Positions 13,063-62,136 of a DNA stretch of 64,000 bases are shown piece after piece. Within the stretch, counting starts at the first letter, position 1, and each line of letters begins with the position of its first letter. The notes beneath the pieces are model-generated. The model was not told the DNA's origin, ran no database searches, and saw nothing but the letters and a program-made list of their open reading frames with translations. Origin of the DNA: Caenorhabditis elegans. Taxonomy: Eukaryota > Nematoda > Chromadorea > Rhabditida > Rhabditidae. The position numbers were made by a program, and so were the translations under genes. The DNA is taken from assembly GCF_000002985.6 (NCBI RefSeq), contig NC_003279.8, positions 10,664,001 through 10,728,000 of the forward strand. The letters are read 5' to 3'.

Positions 13063-16000
13063 TTATTGGAAGAGATGCTCGTAGAGCTCATCATAATGCG
13101 AAACGAATCGAATATCCAACTCTGATTTCATGAATTCTGGTAAATCATCAAAGTCTCGACGATTCTCATTTGGAAGGAAGACTCGTTTTGCTCCGACACG
13201 GCGAGCCTGAAAAAAAATGAAATTTTTGAACGAAAAAAGAACAGAGGACCCACCGCGATCACTTTTTCCCGAATTCCACCAACTGGCAGCACTTTTCCGG
13301 TTAATGAAATTTCACCAGTCATCGCCATGTCCTGCACAACAGGTCGGTCTAAAGCGAGTGAAAGAAGACTTGAGACAAGAGTTACTCCTGCAGATGGTCC
13401 GTCTTTTGGTGTTGCTCCCTAGAAAAATGGAATTGGTTAGTTGAAATTATTTCAAGATTAAGCTCACTTCGGGTACATGAATATGAATATGTGCTTTATC
13501 GAAGAATTTGTTATCGGGTTGCTCTCTTGCAAGAATTCCTTTTGCAACAGTCAACGCTGTTCGAACACTTTCTTTCATTACATCTCCTAAATTTCCAGTT
13601 GTTTCAATACTTCCATCCTTATCATTTGTCAAATCAACAGGTCGTTTCAATACAGTTTCAATATAAAGTGCAGATCCACCCATTGCTGTCCATGCGAGAC
13701 CCATTATCACCTGAACGGAACGTGAATTAAGTTTTTAAAACAGTTTTTTCGCTTACTCCAGGCGGTGTTACTTCATACATTCGATCTGATGTGAATTTGG
13801 GTCTTCCAACGAACTTTTGCAAGTTTTCTGTGCAAACTACAATTTGTTCGGCTGAAGATTTTAAACAATCTGCAGATGATGTAGAGGTGATTGGTTCGGC
13901 TTCTGAGTTTTCAGTGATAGCAGTTGTTGCTTTTTCGGCTGGCTCCTCATCCTCGTTTTGTTGTTCAGCAATTTGAAGAGCTGCTTTACGGAAAATCTGG
14001 AAAAAAAAGGTAATTTCTATAAGCAATCTAAATATAATTGTCGAAACAGAACAATCAACTCGAGGCGCGGATCTGAGACCCGAAGAACTCGGGGGATGTC
14101 CAATTGGGGGATTACCAACTCGGGGGATTGGCCCCGCCCACAGAACCGTGGCTTGCAATACGCCCATTTCTGCAACTGCCGCACGGTTTAAAAATTATTT
14201 TTTCTTGTTAATTCTCGCTCTATTGAGAAAAATACAGTTTTAAAACCGTGCGGCAGTTGCAGAAATGGGCGTATTGCAAGCCACGGTTATGTGGGCGGGG
14301 CCAATCCCCCGAGTTGGTAATCCCCCCAATTGGACATCCCCCGAGTTCTTCGGGTCTCGCGGATCGTCCTGTTTTTACCAAAACATACTCTTTCAATATG
14401 TTGCTGTAAATTTCTGACTCCAGATTCACGACAGTAATGCTTAATGAGCTCTTCCAACGCAGAATCTTCAATTTTCAGTTGTTCTGTGGCGAGAGATGTG
14501 TCTTTTCTGAGTTGAGGAATGAGATGTTGATGAGCAATTTCAACTTTTTCCTCGGCTAAATAACCGCTAACATCAATCATTTCCATTCGATCACGAAGTG
14601 GTCCCGGGATTTTTGAAATCTCGTTTGCCGTGCAAATGAACAAAACTCTGAAAATTAGAAATAAAATTATAGAACCAAGAGGAGAAGCATCTTCAAACCT
14701 AGACAAATCAACTGGAACATCCAAGAAATGATCATTAAAATTCGCATTTTGTTCTGGATCAAGAAGTTCCAAAAGTGCCGATGCGGGATCTCCATGGAAT
14801 CCAGCTCCGCCGATTTTGTCGACTTCATCGATAAGAACAAGAGGATTCTCAGTTTTCACTTTCTTCATGCATTGAATCATTTTTCCAGGCATTGCACCGA
14901 CATATGTACGACGATGTCCCTTGATTTCTGCCACATCAGTCATTCCACCAACTGAGAAACGGAAATACTGCAAATGTTAGATTTAATTTTAACAAGAGAA
15001 AGTTTAGGAAAAAAAACTGAACCTCTCGATTCAAGGCAGTCGCAATTGATTTCGCAATAGAAGTTTTTCCAACTCCAGGTGGTCCATGGAAGCATAGAAT
15101 CTTTCCACCAATTGATTTTCGAAGTAAATTGACTGCAATAAACTCCATAATTCGTTCTTTAACATCTTTCATTCCATAATGTCCTTCATCAAGAGCTTTC
15201 TTTGCAACTGAAAGACGACGATTCTCGGGTGATGTAAGTCCCCAGGGTACTGATGTCAACCATTCCAGGTAGTTTCTGAAAAAAAACGGAACTCAATTTT
15301 TTTTTTGCTTTAAAACATTTAAAATAGTCTGACATTCAGGAAAAAATGCACTTAAAAATGATATTTTTCAGTTTTGAATTTCTTTCAAAACGAGAACTGT
15401 AAGACCAATCGGCGAACCAATCAAAAGGAGTGGGCGGAGTTCCTGGTCGTCGATCCTGTAGTTCTCATTTTGAAGAAAATTAAAATAAATAGATTAACCA
15501 AAAGTGAATAATAGAAATTTAGAAAGTTGGAGTTTTCGTTTAATTTTAAACAATTTTTTGGGGTTTTAATAAAAAAGTTTAAAATTTCTGAACTATTATT
15601 TTTTTTTATATTCCGGAAAATTGAAATTTTTTTAAATTGAAATGTCGAATTGTCAACTTTTCGATAAAAAAAAACATTTCAATTTTTCACGACATCCAGG
15701 AGCTGGTTTCTGAACACTTCATAAACAATCCGGAAGCTTTTGGAGAAATTTTGATTTTTGGAAAAAGAATTCGAAAAAAAATTCGATTGGAAAATTGGAA
15801 AAAAGTTTACTTTTCCGAGCATTTTTAGCCTTTTAAATGCATATATATATTTTTCTATAAAACTAATATAATTTTCAATATCTACCTCGTGACACTAAAT
15901 TCACTGGAATGCGGATCCAAAAACTGCAACTTTGTCTTTTCTTCGTTAATAACTTTCAATGCATATTCTGGAACTGCCAATGTTTTGATTCTTTCATCAA

Positions 16001-19377: not shown

Positions 19378-21583
19378 TTAATACGATCGGACCTTTGGTG
19401 GAACCCAGTCGGTTTCAGATTTATCGAGAGTTTTGTCGATAACTGGGCGGTATGTCAAATCAACAGCTCCAGTTTTCGTATCGATACCGATGATGGAATG
19501 CTTGCGCCAGTGCTGATCAAACGGTTTTTTCTGCTGTCCCTCAAGTGGATTGCTGTAGTCATATTCGTCAATTCTTTCTTGGAAATCATCACGAGCGTGG
19601 GCTCCACGAGATTCAGTGCGATTTTCGGCGGCGACGATGGTTTGATTGGCGTTGATAAGCAAATTCTGAAGCTCGAGAGTTTCGACAAGCTCCGAATTCC
19701 ATACTTTTCCAGAGTCGGCACACGCCTTCAAATTTTGTTGCTCTTTGTAGATGGAGGACATTTTATCGACTCCTTCCTGAAAATATCCAATATTTTTTGA
19801 AAATAGAATAAATCTGTATTTACTTACCTTCAAAAGATCGCCCCGTCTGAAAACAGCAGCATGTTTCTGCATTGTCATTTGCATCTTTTGTCTTAATTCG
19901 ATAGATGAAATATCTCCTTTTGAGTGCAAAAGTCCGTTCAAATTGTCACACGATTTCTCTTCACAATTTACCGGAAGCTCCGGGATTGAATCTCCTGGTT
20001 TGTTCTCATTAAGGATACTGAAATCTTTAGTTTAAACCTGTTCAGATAAATGAAACTAACGTGAGAGCGCAAGATCTTCCAAAGATAACCAAATCTAGAA
20101 GGGAATTTGCTCCGAGACGATTTGCTCCATGAACTGAATGTGCTGCACATTCACCAGCGGCATAGAGTCCTGGAATCACTTTATCTCCTCCTTCAGGTGT
20201 GAAATCGAGAACTTGTCCCTTGTAATTCGTAGGAACTCCTCCCATGTTGTAGTGAACAGTTGGAATGACTGGAATCGGCTCTTTGGTTACATCCACACCA
20301 GCAAAGATTTGAGCGGTTTCCGAGATTCCTGAAAGAAAATTATTAACAATTGAAAACACTAATATCACGTACCTGGCAATCGTTGTTGAAGCTGTTCAGC
20401 TGGAAGATGATGCAATTGAAGGTAAATATGATCTTTGTTTGGTCCGACTCCTCTTCCTTCATTAATTTCCATAGTCATGGCTCTTGAAACAACATCTCTT
20501 GACGCTAAATCCTTGGCATTCGGTGCATATCTTTCCATAAATCGTTCTCCTTGCGAATTGACCAAATATCCACCCTCTCCTCGTGATCCTTCGGTGATCA
20601 AACATCCAACTCCGTAGATTCCAGTTGGATGGAATTGAACAAACTCCATATCAGAATTACGAATACCTGCACGAGCGGTAAGAGCGGTTCCATCACCAGT
20701 ACAAGTGTGAGCAGATGTACACGAGAAGTAAGCTCTTCCATAGCCTCCGGTGGCGAGGACAGTGTTCTTTGCGCGGAAACGATGAATCTGTCCAGTTTCA
20801 ATGTCCAGTGCAACGACGCCAATGCATTTTCCCTTATCCATAATCAAATCCAAAGCGAAATACTCGACAAAATAATTACAGTCGTATTGAAGAGATGCAC
20901 CGTAGAGGGTATGAAGAAGTGAGTGTCCAGTTCTATCGGCCACACAGCAAGTACGGTGAGCCTGTCCTCCACGACCGAAATCATTAGATTGACCTCCAAA
21001 AGCCCGTTGATAAATTTTTCCGTCTGTTGTACGCGAGAAAGGCATTCCTGCAAGAAAATTGTTGTTTTTTAATGTTAGAGAATCTTATTGACCGTAATTT
21101 TCAAGTTCAATAATAGCTCTTTCGGCTTCTCGAGTCATATAGTGAATCGCGTCTTGATCTCCAAGCCAATCGGACCCTTTTACAGTGTCGTAGAAGTGCC
21201 AGCGCCAGTTATCTGGATTCATATTTCCCAAAGCGGCGTTCACACCTAAAAATCAAAATTTAAATTCTGTTCGTATACTTTGAGCGGCTCACCTCCTTGA
21301 GCCGCGACTGTGTGCGATCTTGTGGGGAAAAGCTTCGTAATGACGGCAGTTTTCATTCCACCTTCGGAGAGTCCCATCGCAGCTCTCAAACCGGCTCCTC
21401 CTGCTCCCACAACAACCGCGTCAAAAGTGTGATCAACGACATCAAAATTGGTGGTTGCGCTCACTTGTTTTCTTTGAAAATTGATAAAATTAGTGAAATG
21501 GCGTTAGAAAATAAATTATCTCACTTCATATAAGTGCGAACAGGTGTTTTCGCACGGTTTATCGACTTTACGACATTAAGCAT
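19378..21583 (-). CDS. sdha-2: Succinate dehydrogenase flavoprotein subunit (complex II, SDHA)
   Basis: Exons 21583-21525, 21471-21293, 21245-21093, 21047-20373, 20328-20061, 20017-19828 and 19776-19378 encode 640 residues in phase. A short basic presequence ([18 protein letters not shown]) directs matrix import. The FAD fold begins [11 protein letters not shown] (42-49); the covalent-FAD His is His73 in [11 protein letters not shown]. Other family blocks present include [41 protein letters not shown] and [14 protein letters not shown]. It oxidises succinate to fumarate, passing electrons via SDHB to ubiquinone in the inner membrane. Nematodes have two SDHA paralogues; sdha-2 is assigned from remembered synteny with lonp-1. 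A TTTATT (AATAAA on this strand) lies about 95 bp beyond the stop. No catalytic lesions seen. Confidence 0.96.
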
Positions 21584-27300: not shown

Positions 27301-30300
27301 CCACTTTTTCTGAATTCTTTTTCTGTGTTGAATATTCTTATTTTGTTATTTGCCTTCAAGCTATATTCCGTCTGCTAATGCGGATTTTAAGGAGACTAAA
27401 ATGCAGGTATTAATTCATTTTGTTTTCTTAACAAAATCCAAATTAAAAATGATTCACCAAACTATGTAGTTCGATATTTGAAAAATTCTTAAAACAAATT
27501 GTTCACTTTTTGATTTGATAAGGGGTTTGTTCTACCGAAAAATGCCCAAATTTAGATGATTTTATCATTCCCAAGGGAAATGTTCTTCTTACGATTTATG
27601 AACTTCTTTTTTTTCTAAAACCCGAAAATCTAAAAGTGTCGTTGTAGTTTATTGTATGCTTCCGTTGTAGGAAAAGAATGTTGTAGGAAAAATTGTAGGC
27701 ATTCACAAAATCCCTGCCTGCCTTCGAGGCTGCTTTAAGAAGAACAGAATTCTTCAAAATTTCTTACAGTTACTTCAACTTCCATAAATCTTATCACTGC
27801 CCACGCCAAAAAATGCAGAAAATGATTAGTAGGCAGGCACGTAGGCCTGACTATGTGCCTATCCATAACTGAATATTTAATCAGATCCGAATGAACAAAA
27901 GAAAACAAAAAAGTTCGTCACTCCTGTCTTTCATCTCTCTTTCTCTCAACACATCGGTCCCCTCAAAACCAGTTTCATTCTCAAAATCTTCTCCTGATTC
28001 TCTGCGGCTCTCTGATTCACAAGCTATTTCTCTTTGACCACTTCCACTTCAGAATCATCTCTATTTCTCCCAACAACCAACACATCCATTTTCGTCATAT
28101 TTTCTCTTCTTCGGTTCCACAGAAACAATGTATTTTTGCTAGCCATTTTTGGGTGTCCAAGTTTTGAAAACACTTGGGAACTACTACTACTGGTAACTCT
28201 ATATTTTATTTTTTCGAAATGTTTTTCACTGGGTCAAGTGACATTCTCTAACGTACTGCTGGTTCTGAATCCTCTGTAAAACAGAGAGAAACAAAAAGGT
28301 TAAAATTTCGACATTTTATTTGTTTTTTTTCTATATTAAAACTAATTTTGAAAACTAGGTGCGACCCACACCCACCCGCCTATCGCCCTGAAAAAAAATC
28401 CCTTCTGAAAAATTACAAAAATTTTAATTTTGGTGTTTAAAAACCTAAACAAAAATAGAACACTCTGAAGCTAGTCCGTGCCTCTGAGGGTGCCTACAGG
28501 AGTGCTTAATTGAAATTCGAAAAATAGATTTGCCAATATATGCGCTCACGCTCAGATTCTGAGGTACGTAGGCAGGCAGGTAGGCAGGTAGGAAAGTTTG
28601 GCCGGTTTAGTATTTCGGGTACTTTTCCCTATTTTGTCATTGAGCATATTTATTCATAAGAAATGATTTTTAAACATTTTTAATTCAAAATTTTTTACAT
28701 TTTATTTATGTGTACCTGATATACCCTAAATCTCTAAATCTCCAAATCCCCCCATTCATCAAATTGGCAGATGGTTCTACCCTCGTCCAAATTTTGTGTA
28801 CTCTAAACGGTCTCACGAATTTTGAAATGTAGTCGTCACTTTGAATTCCTGTTTTTTTTCAGTTGTTTTGTTGCTTATGATAGAATTTATCAGTTGTACA
28901 ATAAATTATATTACAGTCTAGAATTCAAAATTTTCGTTTCTTTTTCACGAGTGTTCTCAAAATATTTATTGAGTAAATAAAACATCGAATACTACTACAG
29001 AGACACACTTCATCAGTCACGATTGGGAAGAGTGAATCGTTTTTTTTAAATATTTTTTTTGATTTCTCTGATGTTTTTGACAGAAAATTGAATCGGAAAA
29101 TTTACAAGAACAAAAAAAAAAGAAATTTAAGGATTTGATTTAATACTTGCAGTTTTTTAAATCTTCTCACCAATTCGAATTTAATTTTGAAAAGGTTTTC
29201 AAAAAATTTCAGTTTTTCAAATATTTTCACGATTATTTCTAATTTTTCAAATTCCTAAAAATAATACTTTTCAACCAACAAATTTTACATTTTTTGGAAA
29301 AATACAAAGCAGACTTTTTGCTAGATCTTCAAGCCCAATTCAAGGTTCAAGTAACTTTCGATAAACTTATTGAAATTGATCATGAGAAACTTGAAAGTTT
29401 TAGAATCAGGCGGTAGGTAGGTAGGCAGGTACATTTACCTACATACAATTGTAAAATTTTTGAGATTCAAACTAACAAAAAACTAAAGAATATCGGGCCG
29501 TTTTCGTCTCATAAACTATAAAAGACCCGCGATCAAAAAAAGCGCATAAATATGAGAGAAATCGTTTCGATTTCCTCTTTTCTTTATATTGATTTCCTCT
29601 TTTTTCTTCCCTGTTCAAAATTTTTTCAGAATCATACCTCTAATGCACAAGACGTCAAGTGATAAAGATATAAATCAAAATCCAAAGGAAAAACCACAAG
29701 AAGAAGAAGACGGAAAAGTTGAAGAATCAGTAAAATCTGCAAGATTTCAAAGTAAGGATTCGGAGAAAGATTCAAAAATGATGGAATCGGATTCAGCTGT
29801 GTTTGAAATCGATGAGTTGAACTCAACAATTGCACCGTCGAGCAGTCGACAGTGTATTGTTGAAGCAGGTTAGTAACCAACACTGCTTGTCATCTCGTGT
29901 GAACTGCTTTTTGAAACATTTTCAAAGTTGACTATTTTGATTTAAGTTGCTTCAAATGACAAATATATAAAGCGCCACAAAAAAGAGATCCTTTCAAATT
30001 ATAAAAAATTAGGATTAGTTATAATAGAGTTTGTTAAAGGTGTAGTAGCGCCAGTGGGGATTTTGTCTAAATGCACTTATAATGAACCAAAACGACAGAG
30101 TATCATAATAAAACACTCCAAAAACTTTAGATTTCTCATAATTTCCGGTCAAAGTTTTGGCATATTGCCAAAATTTTGAAAAATACGAGCTTTTGAGGAA
30201 ATCCAAAGTAATGCCCCATATTCCGACCCCTATATTGTTTTAATACGAATAATTAAAACAAATAAAGTTACAGTATAAAGAATGTGGGAAACATTTTTTG

Positions 30301-32500
30301 TCGTCTTCCACATATATGAGTGACAAAAACTTAGTTATTGTCACTTTTTGACTGTAAATAACAAAATTTCAAAAACTAGTTGACACATTTTATTATGATA
30401 ATCGGTCATTTTTACACCATAGGAGTAGTTTTAAACACTTTCTTCATTGGCGCTACTCTACCTTTATCACATTTTTGGTCATTTTGTAGTCTTCTGAATA
30501 ACAAAAATCTCGCTAAATTTCCTTCCTCGCATTCATAATTTTCGAAATTTTTTTGCCTAACTCTAGGTCTATTCACATTGGCCAAATTTTGATTTTCTGC
30601 CGGTTACTATATAGCCTTCGTCATTTGGAAAATTTTTTATCAAAATACCGACAATTTACTGTCCGGTACACAGCTCTTGCTTGTTGAACCGTCTCAACGT
30701 TAAAAACTTTTAAATTTTGGAAAAGTTTAATAAATAAAACGGCGGGACCCATCAAAACTGTATGGCTCTTTGAAATAACTTCAATTGTTTTTCCGAATGC
30801 ACTGCTTTCTGATTTCCGTGATTTTTCAGTTTGTGTGGCCCCTCACTATTAGCTTAAGTTTTCATCTGTTCCTCAGTTGAGCAGGAAATTTATTTTAAAA
30901 GATTTCCTACGTTGGTCAGCTTATTGAATTTTGTCTTCAACAATAGCTTTCACAAATTTAAAAAAAAAAAATTTTCGAAAAAAATAGCTTAATTTGATAA
31001 TATGTAATTTTACAATCTATTTATAAACTTTTTGACTATCAAATCAAACTACTGAATTCTAAAAATCCGAATATCCAGGTCAGTCAGACCACCACAAAAA
31101 TTGAAGGTACTCTTAATCTCTGCCAAAAATACAATTTCAACCACAAGTCAGAGTATTTCAAAATTAAATTCTCGACAGAAAAGTGTGAGTGAAGAAACCT
31201 CAAAACAAAATTCATTCTCTCTGTTTGTGTCAGTTAGTCAATGTTCAAATGAACATACAAAGTCTCGACTTTTTGTTTTTTGCTTCTTGAAAAATTCACG
31301 TGATCTATGTATATTGCTTTACTATTTCTACACTTTTTATTTGGAAATAGCCAATTATCTCAAGAAATGAGTGGCGAAACAGGTACATTTTCAAATTACG
31401 ACATACTTTTGAAAATCAATTCTGAAATTATTTTACTTCAAATAGTTGAGGAAATTGGAAAAAAATTGTCTGAAAAAAAACAAGTGAGAAGAAAATTTAG
31501 TAAAAAAAAATTTTAGTTTAAATTTTAGAAAAATTTCACCACGACTTTTACTTATTTGGTATCTGCAAGTTTATGGTTTATTTAATTTTAAAAGCTTAAG
31601 ATTTTGGGTTTTCAATTTTTCAAAATATCGAGAAACGATTTTTAAATTAGGTTTTTAAAAAAATAATTTTGGAAAAAAACGTATCATCTTCCAAAATATT
31701 ACTTATCAATGCACTTGAAGGGAGTTTTTAAAAAGAAGAAAATATTTAATTTTTCCCATAAAAATTTTCTGCACTTTTATCAGAAAATTTTAAAAAAATT
31801 AAAATTTTTTTGAAAAAGTCATGATATATTTAGTCATGTACGTTCTTAAAAGTGTTTTTCACTGGAGATGTTCTACCTATCAAACGTGGTGTCACAGTGT
31901 CCCATGTCGGTTTGATCTACGTAGATTCACGATAATTGCGGGAATTTAAAGGCAGAGCTCTCAACTTATTTCGCATGAACGTGCTGACGTCACATTTTTT
32001 GGGGAAAAAATTCCCGCATTTTTGTAGATCTAACCGTACAGTCTGACACCACGTGCAATTAGTAAAAAATATTTTTTAGAACAATTAACAAAAGAGAGCT
32101 TTAGTAGTTTGTCGTTAAGCTTCACACATTTGAAAATGTTTTCCACTTAAAAATCACTACTAAAGAAAGTTACTTTGCGAATTAAGAGCACAGCAAAAAC
32201 TTCCCAATTTTTCCAGATCTCGAATGTGCTGTAACAGCGAAGAAGCCAAAGAAGAAGCCTGCTCAACGAACCGATTTCCATCCACGTCCTCCATTTTCAT
32301 GCGTTCCAATTTATACTGCAATTCTTCTCGGATTATTAATTGTTTTAATTGTTGGAGCAGTAACAACTATAGTCGATATGAGACCTGCATTCATTTATGG
32401 AGATGCTGGGAATACAACTCATTTACATCTTAATAAGACATTAACTTCAATTATTGAACCACCTCCACCAATATCGTTTTCAACTTTGAAACCTCAATAG
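24332..32500 (+). CDS. Uncharacterised single-pass membrane protein, large introns
   Basis: Supported exons: 24332-24392, 24856-24916, 26608-26766, 27361-27406, 29630-29868 and 32217-32500 (stop TAG). They read MLPKTGSFDGIPKNFRASLR, an acidic patch (NSEDGSDIFDYMDEGITR), a Lys-rich stretch, an acidic KPQEEEDGKVEE segment, and a last exon with a basic KKPKKKPAQR followed by one span (YTAILLGLLIVLIVGAVTTI) and a Pro-rich tail. A type II-like orientation (basic N-side cytosolic) is inferred. All junctions agree except 27406 to 29630: the former ends in phase 0, the latter needs phase 2. So an unseen exon of 3n+2 bases lies between, or transcripts begin internally at the ATG at 29643. I recognise no family. 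Introns of 1.7-2.3 kb carry many repeats. Confidence 0.65.
24917..26607. other. Intron 2 of the membrane-protein gene, repeat-rich
   Basis: It holds a GGCA/TAGG-type repeat field (25780-26170), a perfect palindromic CRE (TGACGTCA, 25534-25541) and a GGCGAGACCC fragment (26225). No exon with splice support was found. Confidence 0.55.
27036..27110. repeat. Short tandem/palindromic repeat TTTGCTGAGCTCGGCAAG
   Basis: Two copies of a roughly 35-bp unit containing TTTGCTGAGCTCGGCAAG then TTTGCCGAATTTACCG / TTTGCCGAATTTGCCG, ending GAGCTCG. The units are themselves near-palindromic. They sit in intron 3 of the membrane-protein gene. Confidence 0.75.
27407..29629. other. Intron 4 of the membrane-protein gene; probable missing exon
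   Basis: 2.2 kb containing GGCA-type repeats (27650-27860, 28480-28600, 29410) and a C/T-rich region (27920-28110) before an ORF at 28034. Phase arithmetic says a coding exon may be hidden here; I could not locate it. Confidence 0.5.
30034..30476. repeat. Palindromic MITE, GGTGTAGTAGCGCC ends
   Basis: The left end TAAAGGTGTAGTAGCGCCAG mirrors the right end TTGGCGCTACTCTACCTTTA. Inside, blocks around 'caaaacgac..tatcataataaaac' pair with 'gttt..tattatgataatcg'. A second copy is at 57450-57891. Confidence 0.8.
31885..32053. repeat. MITE with CGTGGTGTCA terminal inverted repeats
   Basis: The left end CGTGGTGTCACAGTGTCCCA mirrors the right end ACAGTCTGACACCACG. The interior has TTGATCTACGTAGA opposite TGTAGATCTAAC, plus GCTGACGTCAC. 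A related full element is at 61659-61843, with partial copies near 56640-56690 and 59765-59862. Confidence 0.8.
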
Positions 32501-49776: not shown

Positions 49777-52700
49777 CTAGATGGAAACGGCGAAGAGAAT
49801 GTTCCGAATACCTTGCTGGATGTCGGCGATTGGGATAACCTGAATTTTCCAATGTGGTTTTAATTGACTAACAAACTCAATACAGTATACCTTTCCATCA
49901 GCTCCGCAATTTTCAATTTCTTCCTGAACTCTCTTTTGTAGATCGTAAAGCAACGGACTTTGGAGCCAAAGCAAAGAATATTTGAGGATTCTCAGACACT
50001 CTCCTGCTGATTTGCTCGGTGCTGAAACTTCCGGTCGAAACTTTCGAGTAATTCCCATAAAGCACGTCTGCAAGGCTGGAATCACTAGATCAGGTGGAAG
50101 AATCTGAAAAAAAAGAGATTTTCTTACAGAAACATTTGGTGTTTCAACTACCTCATCATTTGTCCGATTTCGAAGCTCTTTAATCTCTCTCATCAAATCA
50201 ATCAGAGTATCTGATTCGAGAGAAGTGAGAATAAGTTCTAGCGAAATCAAAAAATTGTGAACGCTGATCCCGTCAGATTCACTTGAAGTGGTTCCGAATC
50301 TTTGTGCAAGTGTTCCTCGACCTATGTTCATACTACTGATCGGATCGAACTTCGGCTCTTCAAGATGAACTGCTTGAATCGGAAATTGTTCAATCTCTGG
50401 TGGAATGTGTGGATCCTCATTGTTGTATCTCATGTCTTGATTGATGATTTCCTCGTATACAGGCTCCTGCTTCGGATAGCCATGCATGATTCCGACAAAT
50501 TCAGGCTCATCCAGGTCAGATAATTCTTTCTCAATGACTTGACGCCTCTTTCCTAATGTTTTGCTGGATTTAGTTGAGCTTCTTCTCTTCACTCCCGATC
50601 TTTTCTCACTTAATTCTACTTTCCCATTATTCGAAGTGTACCTGACGATTCGGTAGTTTTCATCGAGCTGTACAGCGCCAGATTGAATCATTCTGAAATT
50701 TAATTTTTCTTCTCTTTTTCTCAAATTCTTCTTTTTTCTCACTGAGCAAGAAAGTCTGATTCTACTTTTCCTTTTAATGCAAACATCATTCGAATGCGGT
50801 CTTCGATTCTGTAGTTGCTCCATTGACTCATTTTTGGAGCCAGTTTTTTGCAAAATCTGAATTACAATTATTAAAGGATATTTATTGAAAAAGTCGCTTT
50901 AAGTCTAGTAGGAACTTGCAAATTTCAAGCAAACTCAAAAAAATATCATCAACATCCTTCAAAAACCAATCACGAGAACTCTACTCACCTGCTACTGTAC
51001 GTAGACGCAGACAGGACGTTACCCTCGAGAAGTGCAAACTCATTGTAGATCAGGCGTATTGATTCAGCGCCATCTTTGGTATTTTGAATAAGAAAGTCCA
51101 TGAATCTGATGTTTGTGGGACATGAAGTGTCATCGGTGAGAGGCTTTTTTAAAGACAATTTTCCGTCGTTCGATGTGTATTTTCTGATTCTTCTCTTCTC
51201 ATCGAGCTCGACAGTTCCGTGTGTTTCAATTCTGCAAATCATAATTCTCTTAGCCATAGATAGAATCGGAATACTGGATGTGGAGAAATTATATACTGAA
51301 ACAAAATGTCAAATAAAAATACAAGAGAATTATGTTGAAGTTTAATGGAGATTGTACTTTAAAACACTCACACCCGTTCAAATATCAATTTTAAAGCTTA
51401 CGTCTTGAGGAAATCGTCTGCAACTTTTCCTTTCAATACAAACATCAATCGAATACGCTGCTCGATACTATATCTGTTCCATTCATTCATATTTGGTGCC
51501 AGTTTTTGATAAAATCTAAATTCCAATCCTTCTCGAACAACAGTAGGACAAATCTCTCACCTCAACTGATACATTTTATCAAGAATACGACTTGGTCGTT
51601 CGCTAAATTCCTTGAAAATTAGATTCGTCGCTTGCATTGGTTCAACGGAATGTCTGGTTTTTTGAATAAGGAAGTCCATGAGTCTCGTGTCTGAAATGAT
51701 ATTTCCTCCCAATTTGAGCTTTCCGTCATTTGAGACATATTTGGTGATTTTTTTCTTCCTATCCAGTTCGACAGTTCCATGAGTTTTTATTCTGAAGAAT
51801 GATTTTAAGTTCATTTGTTCACTTTAAAGGTGGTGTAGTCTAATGTTTTTTATTACTTTATTAGACTTAAAATTGTATGAAAACTCCGAGTTTCCGTCCA
51901 CCGACTGTAAAATAAAAAATTTGACGGCAATTTCAAAAAAAAGTTTCCAGCCGCTGCGACGTTGACAAGCCGGTCCAATTTCCATTTTTCACTAATTTTA
52001 GATCTTTTTTTGGGCCACCAAAACTTTTTTTGAAAAGTTTTCAGAAAGTTTCATTATGAAATTCGGTATTTTCAGACAATTTTGAATCTAATAAAGTAAT
52101 AAAACGAATTCTACTACGCCACCTTTAAATAATACAAATAGTCTTGAATTCTAAAAAAAAAGTGATAAATCAACTTCTTAAAATCAAAGTTTTCAATTTT
52201 CGATTCACCACATTTTTCGGCAATCCTATTTGAACCTACGTCTTGAAAAAATCGCCCGAAACTTTTCCATTCAACACGAACATCAATCGAATTCTGTCGT
52301 AGATATTGTAGTTGTTCAATGCATCCATGTTTGGTGCAAGCTTATGATGAAATCTAAATTTAAATTCTTCCAAAACAACGTTAGAACTAATCTCTCACCT
52401 GACGTAATAGACTCCATAATGACGACAATCGGGTTCTAGTCGGCAAAATTCTTCCAATACTTGATTAAAATTCATTGGTTCAACTGCATATTTAGTTTTT
52501 TGGATAAGAAAGTCCATGAACCTAGTGAAATGTACACGATTATCTTGCAACGAAAGTATTCCGTCATTCGACGTGTATTTGGTGATCTTTCTCTTCTTAT
52601 TCAGCTCGACAGTTCCATGAGTTTCAATTCTGCAAATTATTTTATGTCACACATAAGAAAGTGCATTATTCCTACCTCTCCAAGAAATCCGATTCCACTT

Positions 52701-52984
52701 TTCCACCCAATGCATACATCAATCGAATTCGCGCCTCAATACTGTAGTTATTCCATTCGTTCATATTCGGTGCAAGATCACAACAAAATCTTTTTAAAAA
52801 AGTAATATATTTTTAAAGGCCACCTCGCGGTCTCTTCTCACCTTTTATAATGATAATCATGCAAATGACTTTTTTCATTTAGGTATTCTCTGAATACTTG
52901 TACTGCAATCATTGGTTGAAATGCATCTTTGGTCTTTTCCACAAGGAAATCCATGAATATCTTGAGATCTGCATCTTCTGACAT
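49777..52984 (-). CDS. SPK-domain protein with four SPK domains
   Basis: Exons 52984-52842, 52789-52676, 52629-52399, 52353-52240, 51791-51561, 51515-51402, 51231-50989, 50856-50743, 50692-50152, 50103-49891 and 49839-49777 encode 706 residues in phase. Four SPK domains lie at about 8-112, 122-227, 237-342 and 357-462. Each has FMDFLIQKT-like helix 1, LAPNMNEWNNYSI then RIRLMF, and GTVELDEKRRI..Y.SNDGKL. A basic linker (SGVKRRSSTKSSKTLGKRR) follows, then a C-terminal module (about 560-706). SPK is a nematode-specific domain seen in chromatin and kinase proteins; its function is unclear and a nuclear role is inferred. Each SPK unit spans a long exon plus an invariant 114-bp exon. The plus-strand paralogue is at 56826-59275. 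Gene number not recognised. Confidence 0.88.
51823..52129. repeat. MITE in an SPK-gene intron, TTTAAAGGTGGTGTAG ends
   Basis: The left terminus TTTAAAGGTGGTGTAGTC mirrors the right terminus CTACTACGCCACCTTTAAA. An inner TTACTTTATTAGA pairs with TCTAATAAAGTAA. About 307 bp long, between exons 4 and 5 of the four-SPK gene. No ORF. Confidence 0.85.
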
Positions 52985-53265
52985 CTTTAGTGATACTGAA
53001 AGGGAACGCAAGATTGTTTAGAAAATAGCAATTTTTGTAAATTCGCCAAAAAACGTGAATTTCAGTAAAATAAAAAATTTTCTCGGGATTTTTTGTAGCC
53101 TGGACGCTACAAAAAATTACAAAATGAAATCAATTAAAGATCGATCAATAAAATAAATGGAAAAGGGTGAAAGGCTATTTAAGAGGAGCTGTGAGACTAT
53201 CGAATCCAATAAAAAACAAACATTTTTGTTTTACAAGAAACGCGACAAAAGAGTGCAATAAGATC

Positions 53266-54377
53266 CACTGCGACTTTTTTCGAACGAGGGACGAGGCAAA
53301 AAGGTTTCTAGGCCATGGCCGAGTCTCCGACAAGTTTCAGCGGCAATTTATATTGCATTGTTTTCCGCTTGTTTTCTTCAGTTTTTCTTCAATTTTCACC
53401 GTTTTTTCTCATTAAAACTAACAAATAAATACATTTTACAGATTTTGAAACGATTTTCACGTGAAAGGAAGAATTTTTGGGTCGACTAGTAGCTGCGGAA
53501 GGTCACACAGTAAGTATTATCGATTAAACCAAAAAAACCTAAACTTTTTTCCACACATAATAAAAAAGCTGTGTCAATGCTAATTGCACCTTATTTTCAT
53601 AACCAGACTTCTAAAAAAGTTGTCAAAAATTTTTTTTGGAACTTTTGTGTGAAAAATCGATAAAAATCGAGAAAATTCGATAAAATCAGATCCCAAATGA
53701 AAAAAAACCCAAACTTTTTTCCAAAGTAGATGCACGCGAAGCCTGAAAAATTTTTAAACATTTTTTTTAATATTTAGAAATTTCCAACAAAACAATTACC
53801 TCGTTCTCTTGGGAACTGGAACAGGAAGCCTCCATATCACAACGAGCTCGAATGCTGGCGACGCCTTTACGGCTACTTTCAATCTGTGCTGCCCGCCTTT
53901 TCCTGCTGACCATCTGAAAATTTATAAATGATTTATGTTCATGTTTTTAATGGAAAAAAACGAATTTTCTCGATTTTTATCAATTTTTTCATACAAAAGT
54001 TCCAAAAAAAAAATTTTTGACAACTTTTTTAGAAGTCTGGTTATGAAAATAAGGTGCAATTAGCATTGACACAGCTTTTTTATTATGTTTGGAAAAAAGT
54101 TTGGGTTTTTTTGGTTTAATCGATAATACTTACTGTGTGCCCTTCCGCAGCTACTAGTCGACCCAAAAATTCTTCCTTTCACGTGAAAATCGTTTCAAAA
54201 TCTGTAAAATGTATTTATTTGTTAGTTTTAATGAGAAAAAACGGTGAAAATTGAAGAAAAACTGAAGAAAACAAGCGGAAAACAATGCAATATAAATTGC
54301 CGCTGAAACTTGTCGGAGACTCGGCCATGGCCTAGAAACCTTTTTGCCTCGTCCCTCGTTCGAAAAAAGTCGCAGTG
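53266..54377. repeat. Foldback element: about 415-bp inverted arms around a 280-bp spacer
   Basis: The arm 53266-53680 is the reverse complement of 53961-54377 with only scattered differences. Both include GTTTCTAGGCCATGGCCGAG, GGGTCGACTAGTAGCTGCGG and GATAAAAATCGAGAAAATTC or their complements. Both arms therefore give the same translated ORF (with LGHGRVSDKFQRQF); I treat that as a repeat artefact. The unique spacer holds an exon-like segment. Confidence 0.9.
53800..53913 (-). CDS. Exon-like 38-codon segment in the foldback spacer (uncertain)
   Basis: On the minus strand an acceptor (ATTTTCAG) is followed directly by ATG, 38 open codons beginning MVSRKRRAAQIESSRKGVAS, and a donor (GAG then GTAATTG). 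A next acceptor (about 53755, TTTTTCAG) would add ASRASTLEKS.. and a stop near 53698, giving some 56 residues. The composition (basic start, Ser/Glu tail) looks protein-like. Its length of 114 bp equals the SPK exon, but the sequence is unrelated. It could be captured coding DNA, a small gene or chance. Confidence 0.35.
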
Positions 54378-54720
54378 AGCACGGCCTCCACCACGAGAAA
54401 TGCGCACACTCTCTCGCTTTTTGTTTGCGCGTTTGCGGACGACCACCTTGCCTCGCCGCCGCTTTCAACAGATATTCATGAAATTGAGCTAGAATCGCTA
54501 TTTTTGAACGAAATTTCGAATTTTTTTCACAGAAATAGTGAAGTTGATAAAATGGGAAGTCGGAACTTACAATAAATAGTTAATACGAGCTGTTTTTCAG
54601 TGATTTTTAGCAAGAATTAGATGGAATTAGAAGAATTCTGGACAGACGAGCACTTTTTTAGATTGAAAACTGTTAAATATAAAACGATAAGTGTATTTGA
54701 ACGATTTAAATAAAGAAAAT

Positions 54721-54828
54721 ATGTACGACTGTGGCTTCGGGCTGATTCTCGCTCTTCTCGTGGCAAGTGGATGTATCGTATGGACTTTGAACAGCTACAA
54801 CTTTTTTCGCGTTGGAGATAGAAACTAG
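54721..54828 (+). CDS. Possible 35-residue membrane microprotein
   Basis: ATG to TAG uninterrupted: a Cys/Gly start (MYDCGFGLILALLVASGCIV) forms one hydrophobic span, followed by WTLNSYNFFRVGDRN. It is too short for normal ORF calling. Codon choice (CTC, TTC, ATC) is more coding-like than the surroundings. No transcription or homology evidence is available here, so this is a hypothesis. Confidence 0.3.
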   Translation: MYDCGFGLILALLVASGCIVWTLNSYNFFRVGDRN

Positions 54829-55469
54829 CGATGAACTGACAAAATAAACATCACAAATAGGCGAGCATTTCCTCAGTTGACAATTTTTTGATATCTCGTT
54901 CCACTAAAAAGATACAGCTATGATTTGATGATTGAAGTCCCAGATACGGTACCCTCTCTTAAAACCATCAAATCTCTGTTCTCGTTGAAGATACAAAAAT
55001 ATGTTCAACTGAGAAAATGTTAAGCAGATAAAAAACAACATTTACCAGCAAGAACTACATTTCTATCTACAAAAATAATAGAGATTTTGACTTTTGAAAG
55101 TTGATCATCTTAAACTGGCCATGTCAAAAAATCCTGAACATCAAAATTGAGTTTTCTATTGGAAACATACTCTATATAAGATATCTAACAAATTTGTAGT
55201 TGACTACTTTCTTCTAATGTCTTTATTTTTTGAGTTATGAACTGATCTCTGATTTTCTCATAAATACGGCTTTCGGGGCCTGTAAAAAATTTGTCTTACT
55301 AGTTAGAAAAATATTGTCAACAGAAAAAATGTTCACAATGTCACACTGAACATTTTGTTGGTTGACAACTTTTTTGTAACTTTCATAGAAGCGGAGATAG
55401 GAGCATCCAAAGTGTGAGGGCGCAGTAGAGCGGGTACTGTATCAAAGCACCCAATCTTCTACATCAAAA

Positions 55470-55908
55470 ATCATCTTTTCAACATGGACGGATTTTTATG
55501 TATAATAGGTCAAAATGTGCGTATTAAAAATTGGAACAATCGTATTTTCTTAACTTTTTCAGTCCAAGCCAAATATTTTCTGAAAATTGCGAAAAACCTA
55601 AAAATTTGGTCATTTTAGTACTGTAGTCAACCTTCTAGATTTAATTTCATCTTACAACATTGACCAATTTTTATGCGTGATATGTCAAAATGTGCGTATT
55701 AAAAATTAGAACAATCGTATTTTTTCCGATTTTTGAGTCCAAGCCAAGTATTTCCTGAAAATTGCGAAAAACCTGAAAATTTGGTCATTTTAGTACTGTA
55801 GTCAACCTTCTAGATTTAATTTCATCTTTCAACATTGACCAATTTTTATGTGTGATATGTCAAAATGTGCGTATTAAAAAATAGAACAATCGTATTTTTT
55901 CCGATTTT
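55470..55908. repeat. 175-bp tandem repeat, about 2.5 copies
   Basis: The marker GTCAAAATGTGCGTATTAAA recurs at 55509, 55684 and 55859, an exact 175-bp period. TTTGGTCATTTTAGTACTGT, followed by AGTCAACCTTCTAG, recurs twice. Copies differ by few substitutions, so the array is young or homogenised. Confidence 0.9.
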
Positions 55909-56825
55909 TGAAATTTTTCATTTTACGGTCACTAGCTTCCGGAAAGTGCTGAAATTTTGAGCTGTAAATGTTTGATGTCAAAAAAAGTTTCTCTCATAAC
56001 TTATTTATTGGGGTTTTTTTGTATTAACTCATTAATTGGGAATATATTGAATACATTTTACAAAAAAAATTTGGGAAAAAATCTTAAACTTGCTCGTTTT
56101 AGAGGGGAATGTGTAATATTATGTTCACTCTCTTCACTTATTTCAATGACACAACTATTCTGTGAAATTTATGCCAGACTGTAGAGGACAGTACTCTTTA
56201 TCCGTTCCAATTGTTTCTTTTCAGAAATATGCATTTTCCTTTCTTCCCGACTCCTTCTAAGTGAGGTGGTTGAGCGCGCACTCTCGCCATGCTGTGGAGG
56301 TGAGAGACGCAGAGACCGCCTTTTTCTCTGCGCTCTCTCTGCGCATTTCTCGTGGTGGAGGCCGTGAGTGAGGCTGTCCCATCGATCCACTGCGCACAAA
56401 AATGTCGGGAAAATACTTTTCTTTTTAATTTGTGATGTTTTTGAATGCAATTTGCTTCTTTCTCCACTTAACTCAATAAATTTTTAGAATCTCGATAAAA
56501 TATCAATTTTATAAATTACCATGAGAAAGCTATTTGAAAAATTATTAACAAATTTCACGAAAATCGACACTGAAAAATCAAAAAAACAATTATTCGAATT
56601 GCCCTGTGACGTCACAAATTATTAAAAAGTATTTTTTCGCCATTTCGTGCGCAGCGGAGAGATGGGACAACCTGACACCGCGTGATTTCATCGATTATAT
56701 TTGTCTTCTTAATGCTTTTTTTTATAAAAGTGAATAAATCCCGTAATTTAACGATTTATTCGTTTTTTTCAAAAGTATTTAAAATATCTAATACCCTATT
56801 GTGCTCCATTTCAGGTTAACCAAAC

Positions 56826-59275
56826 ATGTCATACGACGCCAATCTCACGAAATACATGGATTTCCTCGTGAAAAAGACAAAGAATGCTGCTGAGCCAACG
56901 ACGTTTAAAGAAATATTCGATGAATATAGCCGACTAGACCCTGATCGGAGTACATATTCAATGTGCTATGACAAGTTAGAGCTACATCTCACTGTTTGTA
57001 TTTTAAAAATTTAAATTTAGATTTCATCATAGGCTTGCACCAATAATGAATGAATTGAACACCTACAGTATCAGGGAAAGAGTTCGAGTAATGCTCACAA
57101 TGGGTGGAAAAGTTTCCAAAGATTTCCTAACGACGTAGGTTTTAAGAGTGCTGTCGGAAATGTAAAAAGGATAAAGAGAAAGACAATTTGCAGAATTGAA
57201 AAGCTGGGAACTGTCCAACTCGATGAGAAGAGAAGAATCCTAAAATATGCCTCGAAGGACGGAAAATTCAAAATAGAAGGTGCACGGTCCGAATTCATGG
57301 ACTTTCTTATCCAACAGACCAGAGATGCAGTTAGACCGATGACATCGACCTCAATTGCCAAGGAGTTCTGCCGTATCAAGGATCGCCAGGTTTCAGTTGA
57401 TACGTTTAATAAAAAGTGAGTTTTAAAGAGTAGAGAAGGGAAGAGAAGAGGAGAAGCGCCAGTGGGGATTTTGTCTAAATATACTTATAATGACCCAAAA
57501 CGACCGAATATCATAATAAAACACTTCAAAAAATTGTTGATTTTTCATAATTTCTTTTTGGCAAATTGCCAAAATTTTGAAAAAAACGAGCTTTTGAGGA
57601 AATTTAGAGAAATGTCGCATGTTTTGACCGCTACAATGTTTTAATAAAAATAATTTAAACAAAATTAAAACATAAGAAATGAATATATTTACATTTGAAT
57701 ATATAAAAAATAATTTTTATTTTTGTCGATTTCCAAAATTATGAGTGGCAAAAAGTGAGTAATTGCCACTTTTTGACAATGAATAAAAATTTTTCAAAAT
57801 TTTTTTGAAAAGTTTTATCATGATATTTGGTCCATTTGGGATCAAAGGAGTGGTTTCTAACAATTTCCCCACTGGGGCTGCTCCACCTTTAATATCTCTT
57901 GAATGAAAATTGTTTTCCCACATTTTTCGAATTTTGAATAGTTTTTTTTCTTCAATTTTCCACAAGTTGAAGCCACTTGTAGAGCAATTTCGCTATTGAT
58001 AATTCAACTATATTCTAGATTTCGTCGAAATCTGGCACCAAATATGAGTCGATGGAGCAGCTACCTACTCGGAGATCGGATTCGGATGATGTTTGTATTA
58101 AAAGGGACAGTGAGAACTGATTTTCTTGCCGAGTAAGAAACAGTTGAACTTGAAATTAAAAAAAACTTAAATGAATTTTCAGAATTGAAAAATCTGGCAC
58201 CGTTCAACTGGATGACCAGCGCCGAATTGTCAGATATGCATCAAATGATGGAATGATAGAGTTGGAAGAGAAGACGTCGGGAGTGAAGAGAAGAAGGTCG
58301 ACCAAATCCAGCAATACACCTACAAAAAGACGCGAAATCACTGAGAATGAGTTGTCTGACACGGATGATGTAGAAGTTATGGAAATAGTTGATGGCTACG
58401 TGGAACAGGAATCTGCATCGTTTGATTTCGAGGAATTGGTCAATCGAGAAGCGTCATACAATCTGGATCAAGGGCACCTCTACCGTGAGATTCTAGAGGC
58501 TCCACTCCTTGAAAATCGAGATTCCAAATTCAATCCTTTCAATGCAAAGAGTGGTCGGCAGGCAGAGGTTCAAAGATCTGGAACTTTTTTAAACGAATCG
58601 GAAGGTACTTCTACAAATGCACAAGAATCTTTCGTCTTCCGTGGCTTCTTGAAGCAGGAGCCTGTATTTGAGCAATTCCATATTCAAAACATGTCAAACA
58701 ACCTGGTGAATCTACCCATTCCACCAGAGATTGAGGAAACCCCAGTTCAAGAAGGTCACCATGTTGAGCCATCGGGAATCACTGGATCTGACGGGATTAG
58801 ACTTCACAAGTTTTTGAATTCGTTAGAACTCATGCTCACATCTCTCGAATCAGATACTCTAAACGATTTAATGCAAGAGATTGAAGAGATTCGCCGTCGA
58901 ACAGATGAGGTAGTTGAAGAATCAAATTTTCCAATAAATTATCTTTTTTTTCAGATTCTTCCATCGGAGCTAGTGATTACTACCCTCCAGACATTCTTTT
59001 TGGGAATCACTCGAAAGTTTCGGCCGGAAACCTCAGCACCGAGCAAATCAGCAAAAGAGTGTCTGAGAATCTTCAAATATGCTCTCCTTTGGCTTAAAAA
59101 CCCGTTGCTTTACGATCTACAAAAGAGAGTTCAGGACGAAATTGAAAATCACGAAGCGGATGGAAAGGTATTAGATTGAGTTATTAACCAATCAAAATTA
59201 TATTTAAATATTCAGGTTCTCCTAATCGCTGACGTCCAGCAAGGTATTCGCAATATTCTTTTCACTGTTGTTTAA
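56826..59275 (+). CDS. SPK-domain protein with two SPK domains (paralogue of the 49.8-53.0 kb gene)
   Basis: Exons 56826-56974, 57021-57134, 57194-57415, 58019-58132, 58183-58909, 58955-59167 and 59216-59275 encode 532 residues in phase. SPK domains lie at about 8-114 and 120-226, again with 114-bp second exons. They are followed by the same basic linker (SGVKRRRSTKSSNTPTKRR), an acidic/Ser-rich middle and the same C-terminal module (ITRKFRPETSAPSKSAKECL; LLYDLQKRVQDEIEN). The penultimate exon is 213 bp in both paralogues and about 80% identical in protein. Compared with the minus-strand gene it has two fewer SPK units and a longer linker. Intron 3 (57416-58018) contains a palindromic MITE. 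The domain is nematode-specific; a nuclear or regulatory role is inferred only. Confidence 0.88.
57450..57891. repeat. Palindromic MITE in the two-SPK gene
   Basis: The left end GAAGCGCCAGTGGGGATTTT mirrors the right end CCCCACTGGGGCTGCTCCAC. AAAAAGTGAGTAATTGCCACTTTTT occurs internally, and ATCATAATAAAAC pairs with GTTTTATCATGAT. Same family as 30034-30476. Confidence 0.8.
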
Positions 59276-60160: not shown

Positions 60161-62136
60161 TTATGTGACAACGGGAACTAAAAACACTTGTGGGTGCACC
60201 ACATTACGTCCCGTGCACCCAAAAATAACTGCAAAGAACTTTTTGAAATTGAACGATGTTAATAATATTTTCAAATTATTTCTGTTGCAGCCCAAATAGG
60301 ATATTTGAATTATTATAGGTGTTGTTAAGCCATCAAATGCAATTGTACCAGCTATTAAATATATTATTAAGTTTTCTGCAGTGGATATAAATATTATTAG
60401 CATAATAACCATCTGAAATTAAAAATTTAGAGGGCTTTTCTTATCGATATGGGCTTCTCTATGTGTATTGTTTTTTAAGCTCTTCCGAGAACATATACTA
60501 AAATTGGACTAATACAGAGAAGATTAGCATGGCCCCTGCGCAAGGATAACACGCAAAAGTAGACGTTCCAACCGACACGCCTCTTTAGTTGTTTTGAAAA
60601 ATCGAAAAAAGTTCAAAAAAAGTTTACCTAACAATTTCTTGATATCGTTAAAAATTTCTCGAAAAAATGAACCAACAGATTCTTTCGAAGTTGCGCGAAA
60701 AAAAGGTTTTCAGTTATGTTTTTCCAGATTAATTTTTTTCAAATGTACATACTTTACCGTGCTCGTTTCTACATAAGAAATATATGGAAAACTTACAAAT
60801 TTGAAGAACAAGACGAGTACACTCTGCCAAAACATGTAGTTATGAAGATAAATATGCTCTTCAGAACGTAGATTACTACTTTTCCAAAGACTTAAAATAA
60901 TCGGAAAGTAGCAAACTGGACATAAGAATATGAGAATAATGTTCAAAATCATGTATGCCGTCTGCAATATGAAATTAAAAAAATACTATAATACACCACC
61001 TACTTGATAAAAGATAATAATAACATCAATTACTTCAAACGACAGAATAAACCAATGAGCCCAGTAAAGAAATATTCCAATCAGTTCATTTACAAAGAAA
61101 AATGCATACAAATACCAGATAAAGTCTGGTAAATTTCTTCTTGATAAAAACCGGGTGAAAATATGGAATGGGAAAAAATACTGGCAACAATTCTTGACAG
61201 TTAATAGAAAAACCAGCAAATGGAACATTTGATTAATGACAACTATGGTAAGAGCTGGTATTGTTATACATGTAACTGACAATATAATTAAAGGAATTTG
61301 ACTGAAAAAAACTTTAGATTATTCCTTTGTTTATTCTTTTAGCATACTTACAAAATACTTGTCTCTCCAGGAGTGCTTGTTGTAGAAAATGTTAACAAAC
61401 ATGACATAAAAATTGTCAGTAAAAGAACATAAGACATTATAACCATTACAAAGAAATGATGGATTATTGATGGAAACGTCTGCAAGTAATTTATCTTTTT
61501 GCTCTCACTTGTGAGGAGTTTAGTGAAAATGTCTCCAAAACTGGGGATAATTAGGCGGGACATGCTCAGGAACAGGAAGCCACAGAGTGGGCAATTTGTT
61601 GTCAAATTTTTTTTCGATCAGCCAATTTGGGCAAAAATATTGAAGACTTCTGAAAATACGCGTGGTGTCAGGCTGTCCCATCACGACTTAACCTCTAGAA
61701 AATTCGGGGTAATTTGCTCAAAAAATGTGACGCCAGAACATTCTTAACCATGCGAAATAAGTTGAAAACTCTTCGTCGATATTCCCGCATTTTTTTGAGA
61801 TCAATGTACATCAAACCGGAATGGGACACTCTGACACCGCGTGAAAATAGGTGAAAACTGAGTTTTCTATTTTTTATATGGTTCTTCCCCGCCTAGCCCT
61901 TAAAGGGTGTTGGGTGTAAAACTCGATAGAAACTTATCCGGCACAACTCTCACACAAAATTCAGTCAAATATTGTGTGTTTTATCTAACCATTTCTAGTT
62001 GTCGATTCACTTTGTGGACATAAAGATAAAATGGTAAAATAGTTAAATATAACATTATTGATAACCAAAAAAACGAAATTAATGCATGTGCAGAGAGGGG
62101 AATTTTTGAATCGATCAGCTCTTGTGTTACATTCAT
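60161..62136 (-). CDS. Seven-transmembrane chemoreceptor, srz-like
   Basis: Exons 62136-61990, 61479-61352, 61301-61004, 60961-60797 and 60412-60161 encode 329 residues in phase. An N-terminal segment precedes span 1 (LISFFWLSIMLYLTILPFYL) and YVHKVNRQ. Then come TFPSIIHHFF, further hydrophobic spans, FFPFHIFTRFLSRRNLP, LCPVCYFPIILSLWKSSNLR, HNYMFWQSVLVLFFKF, and a last span with TTPIIIQISYLGCNRNNL. The LPFYxYVxKVN and FPxxxHF features fit the class Z (srz) serpentine receptors; srxa or another sr family is the alternative. Such GPCRs act in sensory cilia to detect chemicals. Intron 1 hosts a MITE and intron 4 a U6-like sequence. No frameshift, so it is probably functional. Confidence 0.82.
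60479..60580 (+). pseudogene. U6 snRNA-like sequence, divergent 3' half
   Basis: CTCTTCCGAGAACATATACT, AAAATTGGA, then ATACAGAGAAGATTAGCATG and GCCCCTGCGCAAGGAT match nematode U6, including the ACAGAGA box. The 3' part departs (GGATAACACGCAAAAGTAGA rather than the normal stem-loop and tail), and only a short T run follows (60590-60600). It lies antisense inside intron 4 of the srz-like gene. Probably a pseudogene; a functional variant is less likely. Confidence 0.75.
61659..61843. repeat. MITE with CGCGTGGTGTCAGG ends in srz intron 1
   Basis: The left end CGCGTGGTGTCAGGCTGTCC mirrors the right end GGGACACTCTGACACCGCGTG, with ATTCCCGCATTTTTTTGAGATC in the interior. Same family as 31885-32053. 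Confidence 0.8.

Follow-up and report, generated by a model that had tools for sequence, protein, structure and literature searches.

The SPK (DUF545) proteins of nematodes, among them SET-24, OGR-2, and GBAS-1, share the Pfam domain PF04435. A TEBP-like Myb fold of SPK has already been published for SET-24 (PMC12886896), and in TEBP-1 and TEBP-2 a C-terminal interaction part comes after several Myb-like units (PMC8113555). Newborn duplicates in worms are often adjacent and inverted (PMC2728529), and gene conversion is known to occur in worms between paralogues that are adjacent and inverted (PMC3966223). Here, a pair of SPK genes at ~10.71-10.72 Mb of chromosome I of Caenorhabditis elegans is described, inside a window of 64,000 bp (10,664,001-10,728,000). 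Gene A encodes four copies of the domain and gene B two. The best explanation, held with slightly better than even confidence as a whole, is that an SPK gene with three units gave rise long ago to A and B as inverted paralogues, and that domain changes, gene conversion, and spacer growth followed, with a nuclear Myb-like function of the products. Directly observed are the architecture, the inversion, the relations of the units to three-unit genes on chromosome IV, the equal-phase two-exon cassettes, and the composition of the spacer from mobile elements.

The predicted model of gene A has 11 exons and encodes 706 amino acids (aa); that of gene B has 7 exons and encodes 532 aa. GT-AG borders are found at all 16 introns of the two models. 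The Pfam SPK profile matches four stretches of A (E 1.6e-117, 385.4 bits) and two of B (E 1.2e-58, 196.2 bits; cut-off 22.1), and the Pfam scan of both proteins gave no SET or other family above its cut-off besides SPK. Both proteins end alike, with a basic linker and then a C-terminal module. The genes are divergent, with their 5' ends inward and a spacer of 3,841 bp from ATG to ATG. Introns in the SPK blocks are in phase 2 throughout (8/8 in A and 4/4 in B), and the final two introns of each gene are in phase 0. Because all SPK-block introns share phase 2, gain or loss of a cassette leaves the reading frame intact.

Self-BLAST aligned the 3' ends of the genes in inverted orientation (58786-59269 against 50278-49786; 82% identity over 493 bp, E 2.6e-114), and further, shorter inverted matches are spread over the SPK exons. 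These matches greatly exceed chance expectation. A and B also have the characteristics of inverted duplicates: they lie on opposite strands, their coding sequences can be aligned, and their exon structures match. A first-pass annotation, made from the DNA letters, had described opposite-strand genes with a common architecture, linker, and C-terminal module, facing away from a 3.8-kb spacer. The models, Pfam, and self-BLAST agree with it, and the inverted matches are those that a dot-plot of 49-60 kb was expected to reveal. Its value of about 80% identity for the DNA of the 213-bp exon is too low; identity is 85% in DNA and 79% in protein.

The genome searched comprises 100.3 Mb in seven contigs, with 84 or more exon-level SPK matches. 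Fetched regions were scanned with profiles of three SPK parts (a, b, and c) and two C-terminal parts (e and d), which yielded 47 chained SPK units. Only chained a-b-c units from these regions were used, so that divergent SPK genes are missing and the counts for the genome are minimum values. A search with the linker and C-terminal tail of A gave 24 matches (E <= 0.1), spread over chromosomes I-IV, 5 of them within A and B themselves. The next closest relatives are two genes, IVp and IVq, at 3.534-3.543 Mb of chromosome IV. As in A and B, their SPK units are succeeded by the basic linker and then the e/d module; the leader before their ATG is close to that of A. Unlike A and B, they have three SPK units each, stand in direct tandem orientation, and differ from each other by a synonymous divergence (dS) of only 0.22. 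TTTCAG is found 11 nt before the ATG in both A and B, where it looks like a splice-leader acceptor; IVp and IVq have TTTAAG at the equivalent place. Elsewhere on chromosome IV, two SPK gene copies lie ~200 kb apart in opposite orientation (13.654-13.661 and 13.852-13.859 Mb); by an eye count, 10 of the 11 SPK and module parts matched between them have the same protein sequence, and one differs at its end.

The phylogeny of SPK units included 44 of the 47 units, as the three of the 13.65-Mb copy are near-duplicates of the 13.85-Mb copy. The first unit of A (A1) grouped with IVp1 and IVq1 (support 100/93). A2 and B1 formed a pair (98/87), which was then joined by unit 2 of the chromosome IV genes (92/84), and the last units A4, B2, IVp3, and IVq3 formed one set (98/82). 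A3 had no supported position in this tree. Approximately unbiased (AU) tests rejected a single A1-A4 clade (3.7e-5), B1+B2 (0.0197), and the union of all six window units (0.011), whereas A4+B2 (0.353), A2+A3 (0.22), A1+A3 (0.101), and A1+B1 (0.0605) stayed above 0.05. These rejections, together with the groupings, indicate that the units multiplied before the genes did. The relations suggest a three-unit ancestor, a unit gain in A, and a unit loss in B. The first-pass annotation had proposed an inverted duplication followed by unequal domain gain or loss (four against two), and both events can be placed against the three-unit relatives on chromosome IV. Its duplication stands insofar as A and B are inverted paralogues, but the trees do not support the two as each other's nearest kin throughout: grouping with distant family members, named there as counter-evidence, is found in part, as A1 and A4 are nearer to chromosome IV and only A2+B1 pair, although A4+B2 is not rejected and the C-terminal modules of A and B are closest to each other.

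The gain in A may have occurred through duplication of a two-exon cassette. Exons 3-4 and 5-6 of A each measure 231 + 45 (intron) + 114 = 390 bp and are identical at 282 of 383 aligned positions, which fits such a duplication. B would have lost its unit when units 1 and 2 recombined. The 27-nt leader and the start of exon 1 of B resemble exon 1 of A (0.70-0.83 to A1 until ~56888), and the remainder of exon 1 resembles unit 2 of A (0.67-0.77 across ~56895-56960); these are sliding identities with no significance test. Exon 2 of B is most similar to exon 4 of A (0.746), followed by exon 6 (0.702) and exon 2 (0.649).

By Nei-Gojobori counts and Jukes-Cantor, dS is 0.56 between A and B, 0.68-0.70 between A and the chromosome IV genes, and 0.62-0.63 between B and the same genes. 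The ratio of nonsynonymous to synonymous divergence (dN/dS) is 0.37-0.50 among the four genes. The copies are considered old, because dS between A and B is nearly that to the chromosome IV genes. A recent inverted duplication, in which A and B would be young sister genes and their inversion driven by the foldback repeat in the spacer or its hairpin, agrees with the adjacency and inversion of the genes, with the frequency of such newborn duplicates in worms, with the A2+B1 pair, and with the 85% identity of the 213-bp exon. It is very unlikely, however, given this overall dS and the position of A1 and A4 beside chromosome IV. The 213-bp exon is a poor gauge of age and was probably made alike by later conversion.

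Several contrasts are most likely explained by gene conversion of the 3' module. In the 213-bp exon, dS falls to 0.26 for A-B (p 0.0047 against the rest of the gene) and to 0.06 for IVp-IVq (p 0.0085), with weaker contrasts for A-IV and B-IV (p 0.056-0.25). Residues common to A and B but absent from the chromosome IV genes make up 13 of 24 informative sites in this exon versus 11 of 64 in the SPK parts (p 0.001). The silent-run test is significant for IVp-IVq (p 0.0015), and three other pairs gave p 0.70-0.83. The evidence for conversion is good for the chromosome IV pair and suggestive for A-B, where the exon would have been made alike after the unit changes. The module tree places A and B closest to each other (74% aa identity), with no supported A+B fork; it has 16 rows, omits the 13.65-Mb copy of chromosome IV, and includes a row (chromosome III 13,502,187) whose e part is from the adjoining gene.

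Several observations weigh against the proposed history. The best rooted tree, built from the last unit and module with outgroups, puts A with the chromosome IV genes (57/61), and on the same data the AU test gave 0.15 for A+B and 0.337 for B with chromosome IV. No single rooting among A, B, and the chromosome IV genes gains clear support here, so that a local inverted duplication is not proven. In the unit tree, A4 is closer to IVp3 and IVq3 than to B2 (98/76); a sister relation of A1 and B1 escapes firm rejection; and the highest raw identity of B1 is to a unit on chromosome III (52% over 94 columns). Within gene A, exon 3 is slightly nearer to exon 7 (0.745) than to exon 5 (0.71), and exon 6 is nearer to exon 8 (0.791) than to exon 4 (0.772), so that the cassette pair stands out by its equal lengths and not by exon identity. 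As for conversion, the silent-run test is borderline for A-B (p 0.059) and as low for A-IVp (p 0.049), and three intron pairs at the 3' ends of A and B are not outside shuffles.

The position of A4 and the few A=B residues in the SPK parts would also be expected if A and B were separate members of a dispersed family, brought side by side with only the 3' exon converted. The leaders point the same way: by an eye count, the 11-nt leader of A is like that of chromosome IV at 10/11 positions, and that of B is like that of A at 6/11. The linker stretch NPFNA is likewise common to B and the chromosome IV genes and absent from A. Such an independent arrival is nevertheless unlikely in view of the well-supported A2+B1 pair, of a dS between A and B below both A-IV and B-IV, and of A4+B2, which the AU test did not reject. 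Old inverted paralogy of A and B is retained as the preferred history.

The spacer consists mostly of three mobile elements (Table 1). An inverted repeat had been noticed there in the first pass, and its arms (53266-53679 and 53961-54377) are 98.1% identical over 417 columns. Two copies at 97-98% identity, with the loop in common, are present on chromosomes IV and II, and at least 40 further arm matches at 75-79% were found among 40 scored of 315 candidates, some of them being the two arms of a single copy. The nearly identical arms and the copies on other chromosomes mark this foldback as a dispersed mobile element of younger age, which counts against it as the driver of a recent inversion. 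The second element was probably inserted after the foldback, as its left AGTGAG copy overlaps the foldback end. Without the three elements, about 433 bp (281 + 152) are left, and mobile elements would have widened a divergent upstream region of ~430 bp to 3.8 kb. The upstream queries excluded the 27 bp adjoining each ATG; the remaining 254 of 281 bp upstream of A (53012-53265) and 125 of 152 bp upstream of B (56674-56798) had no other match, which is not proof of rarity. A separate repeat (57452-57891) is located inside intron 3 of B and has a relative at 30044-30466 (84% and 75% stretches).

Table 1. Features of the SPK gene pair and its spacer, in window positions.
Feature	Coordinates	Strand	Basis or remark
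Gene A, four SPK units, basic linker, C-terminal module	49777..52984	-	Gene model, Pfam
Gene A exons 1-6 (5'->3')	52984-52842, 52789-52676, 52629-52399, 52353-52240, 51791-51561, 51515-51402	-	
Gene A exons 7-11 (5'->3')	51231-50989, 50856-50743, 50692-50152, 50103-49891, 49839-49777	-	
Two two-exon cassettes of A (52629-52240, 51791-51402), possible unit gain	51402..52629	-	74% identical
213-bp C-terminal exon of A, probable gene-conversion tract	49891..50103	-	Counterpart in B 58955-59167
281 bp upstream of A outside the three elements, TTTCAG 11 nt before ATG	52985..53265	-	
Foldback mobile element, 1,112 bp, two near-identical copies elsewhere	53266..54377	.	Genome search
Second mobile element, 1,987 bp, inverted ends CACGGCC/GGCCGTG, 6-bp flanking repeat AGTGAG	54380..56366	.	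96% copy on chromosome V
Small element, ~303 bp, ends AGGCTGTCCCATC / GATGGGACAACCT, many partial relatives	56371..56673	.	
152 bp upstream of B outside the three elements, TTTCAG 11 nt before ATG	56674..56825	+	
First unit of B, apparently chimeric, possible scar of a lost unit	56799..57134	+	Sliding identities
Gene B, two SPK units, basic linker and C-terminal module as in A	56826..59275	+	Gene model, Pfam
Gene B exons	56826-56974, 57021-57134, 57194-57415, 58019-58132, 58183-58909, 58955-59167, 59216-59275	+	

The function of SPK proteins, called unknown in the first pass, can be narrowed by the published TEBP-like fold. In structural prediction, a modelled SPK unit has a fold like the telomere-binding Myb domains of TEBP-1/2; the best match is the DNA-bound MCD3 of TEBP, and another is the MCD2 homodimer of TEBP-1. 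The last units A4 and B2 are strongly basic, and a basic signal lies in the linker. On this modelling, A and B are most likely nuclear multi-Myb binders of DNA or chromatin. Binding would be through the Myb-like SPK units, most likely the basic last unit, analogous to the third Myb-like unit of TEBP-1/2, and the C-terminal module would bind protein partners. The module has an apparent internal repeat (profile comparison probability 51.7 versus <=1.9 in 30 shuffles, from 4 of 9 rows owing to a name clash).

Other results go against DNA binding. The Foldseek E value for TEBP is only 0.16, with 10-12% sequence identity, and the six SPK units had no hit at E<=10 in a profile search of PDB sequences. 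Family-wide, last SPK units do not exceed the others in basicity (p 0.47, with IVp1 counted among last units by a 1,500-bp distance rule), and B1 and A3 also carry +4. The SPK units may instead serve protein-protein contacts only, as dimer modules like MCD2 of TEBP-1 or as a scaffold like GBAS-1. The homodimer match is in line with this, as are the presence of SPK in GBAS-1, a G-protein activator, and the report that SET-24 could not be immunoprecipitated with chromatin. The DNA-bound MCD3 as best match, the basic last unit, and the linker signal speak against it, and it is regarded as a tentative possibility, rather doubtful as it stands.

In the rest of the window, a U6 spliceosomal RNA gene is found at 60479-60577 (+; Rfam, 75.2 bits). 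Two open reading frames on the minus strand, 14287-14976 and 20365-21084, resemble a Lon protease and a succinate dehydrogenase flavoprotein, respectively.

What was a vague "unknown domain" pair becomes a pair of testable proteins, for which a Myb-like array is predicted, with a last unit that is basic, a linker that probably carries a nuclear signal, and a C-terminal module that is uncurated. The pair also suggests a mode of domain-number change within one gene family, namely, whole-cassette exchange. A far more speculative extension, to which little probability is given, is that SPK genes play in nematodes the part of evolving zinc-finger arrays. They would encode strings of DNA-binding Myb-like units, with the unit number retuned via swaps of phase-2 two-exon cassettes and with repeated inverted duplication and 3' gene conversion, and would so quickly track genomic targets such as repeats, telomeres, and transposons.

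Compared with known SPK proteins, A and B are without a SET or other Pfam domain, and they carry a C-terminal module for which sequence searches of Pfam and PDB gave no credible match. TEBP-1 and TEBP-2 differ from SPK at the sequence level, where there is no match, and resemble A and B in the predicted fold and in the succession of several Myb-like units and a C-terminal part. Divergent inverted copies, as in A/B, are also seen in two head-to-head SPK arrangements on chromosome X, at 1.40 Mb (99.3% and 99.7% identity over 856 and 601 bp, 1,360-bp gap) and at 0.21 Mb (210,540-212,258; 94.5% over 272 bp). In the former (1,399,485-1,404,672), the plus copy has an extra internal direct duplication of 290 bp at 99%. 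Both are much younger than A/B, judged by identity, and the younger inverted duplication serves as a comparison case. Inverted duplication therefore recurs in the SPK family. As adjacent inverted newborn duplicates are common in worms (PMC2728529), the A/B pair is ordinary in kind: it is a real, well-preserved pair of a known type, with an instructive history of domain exchange.
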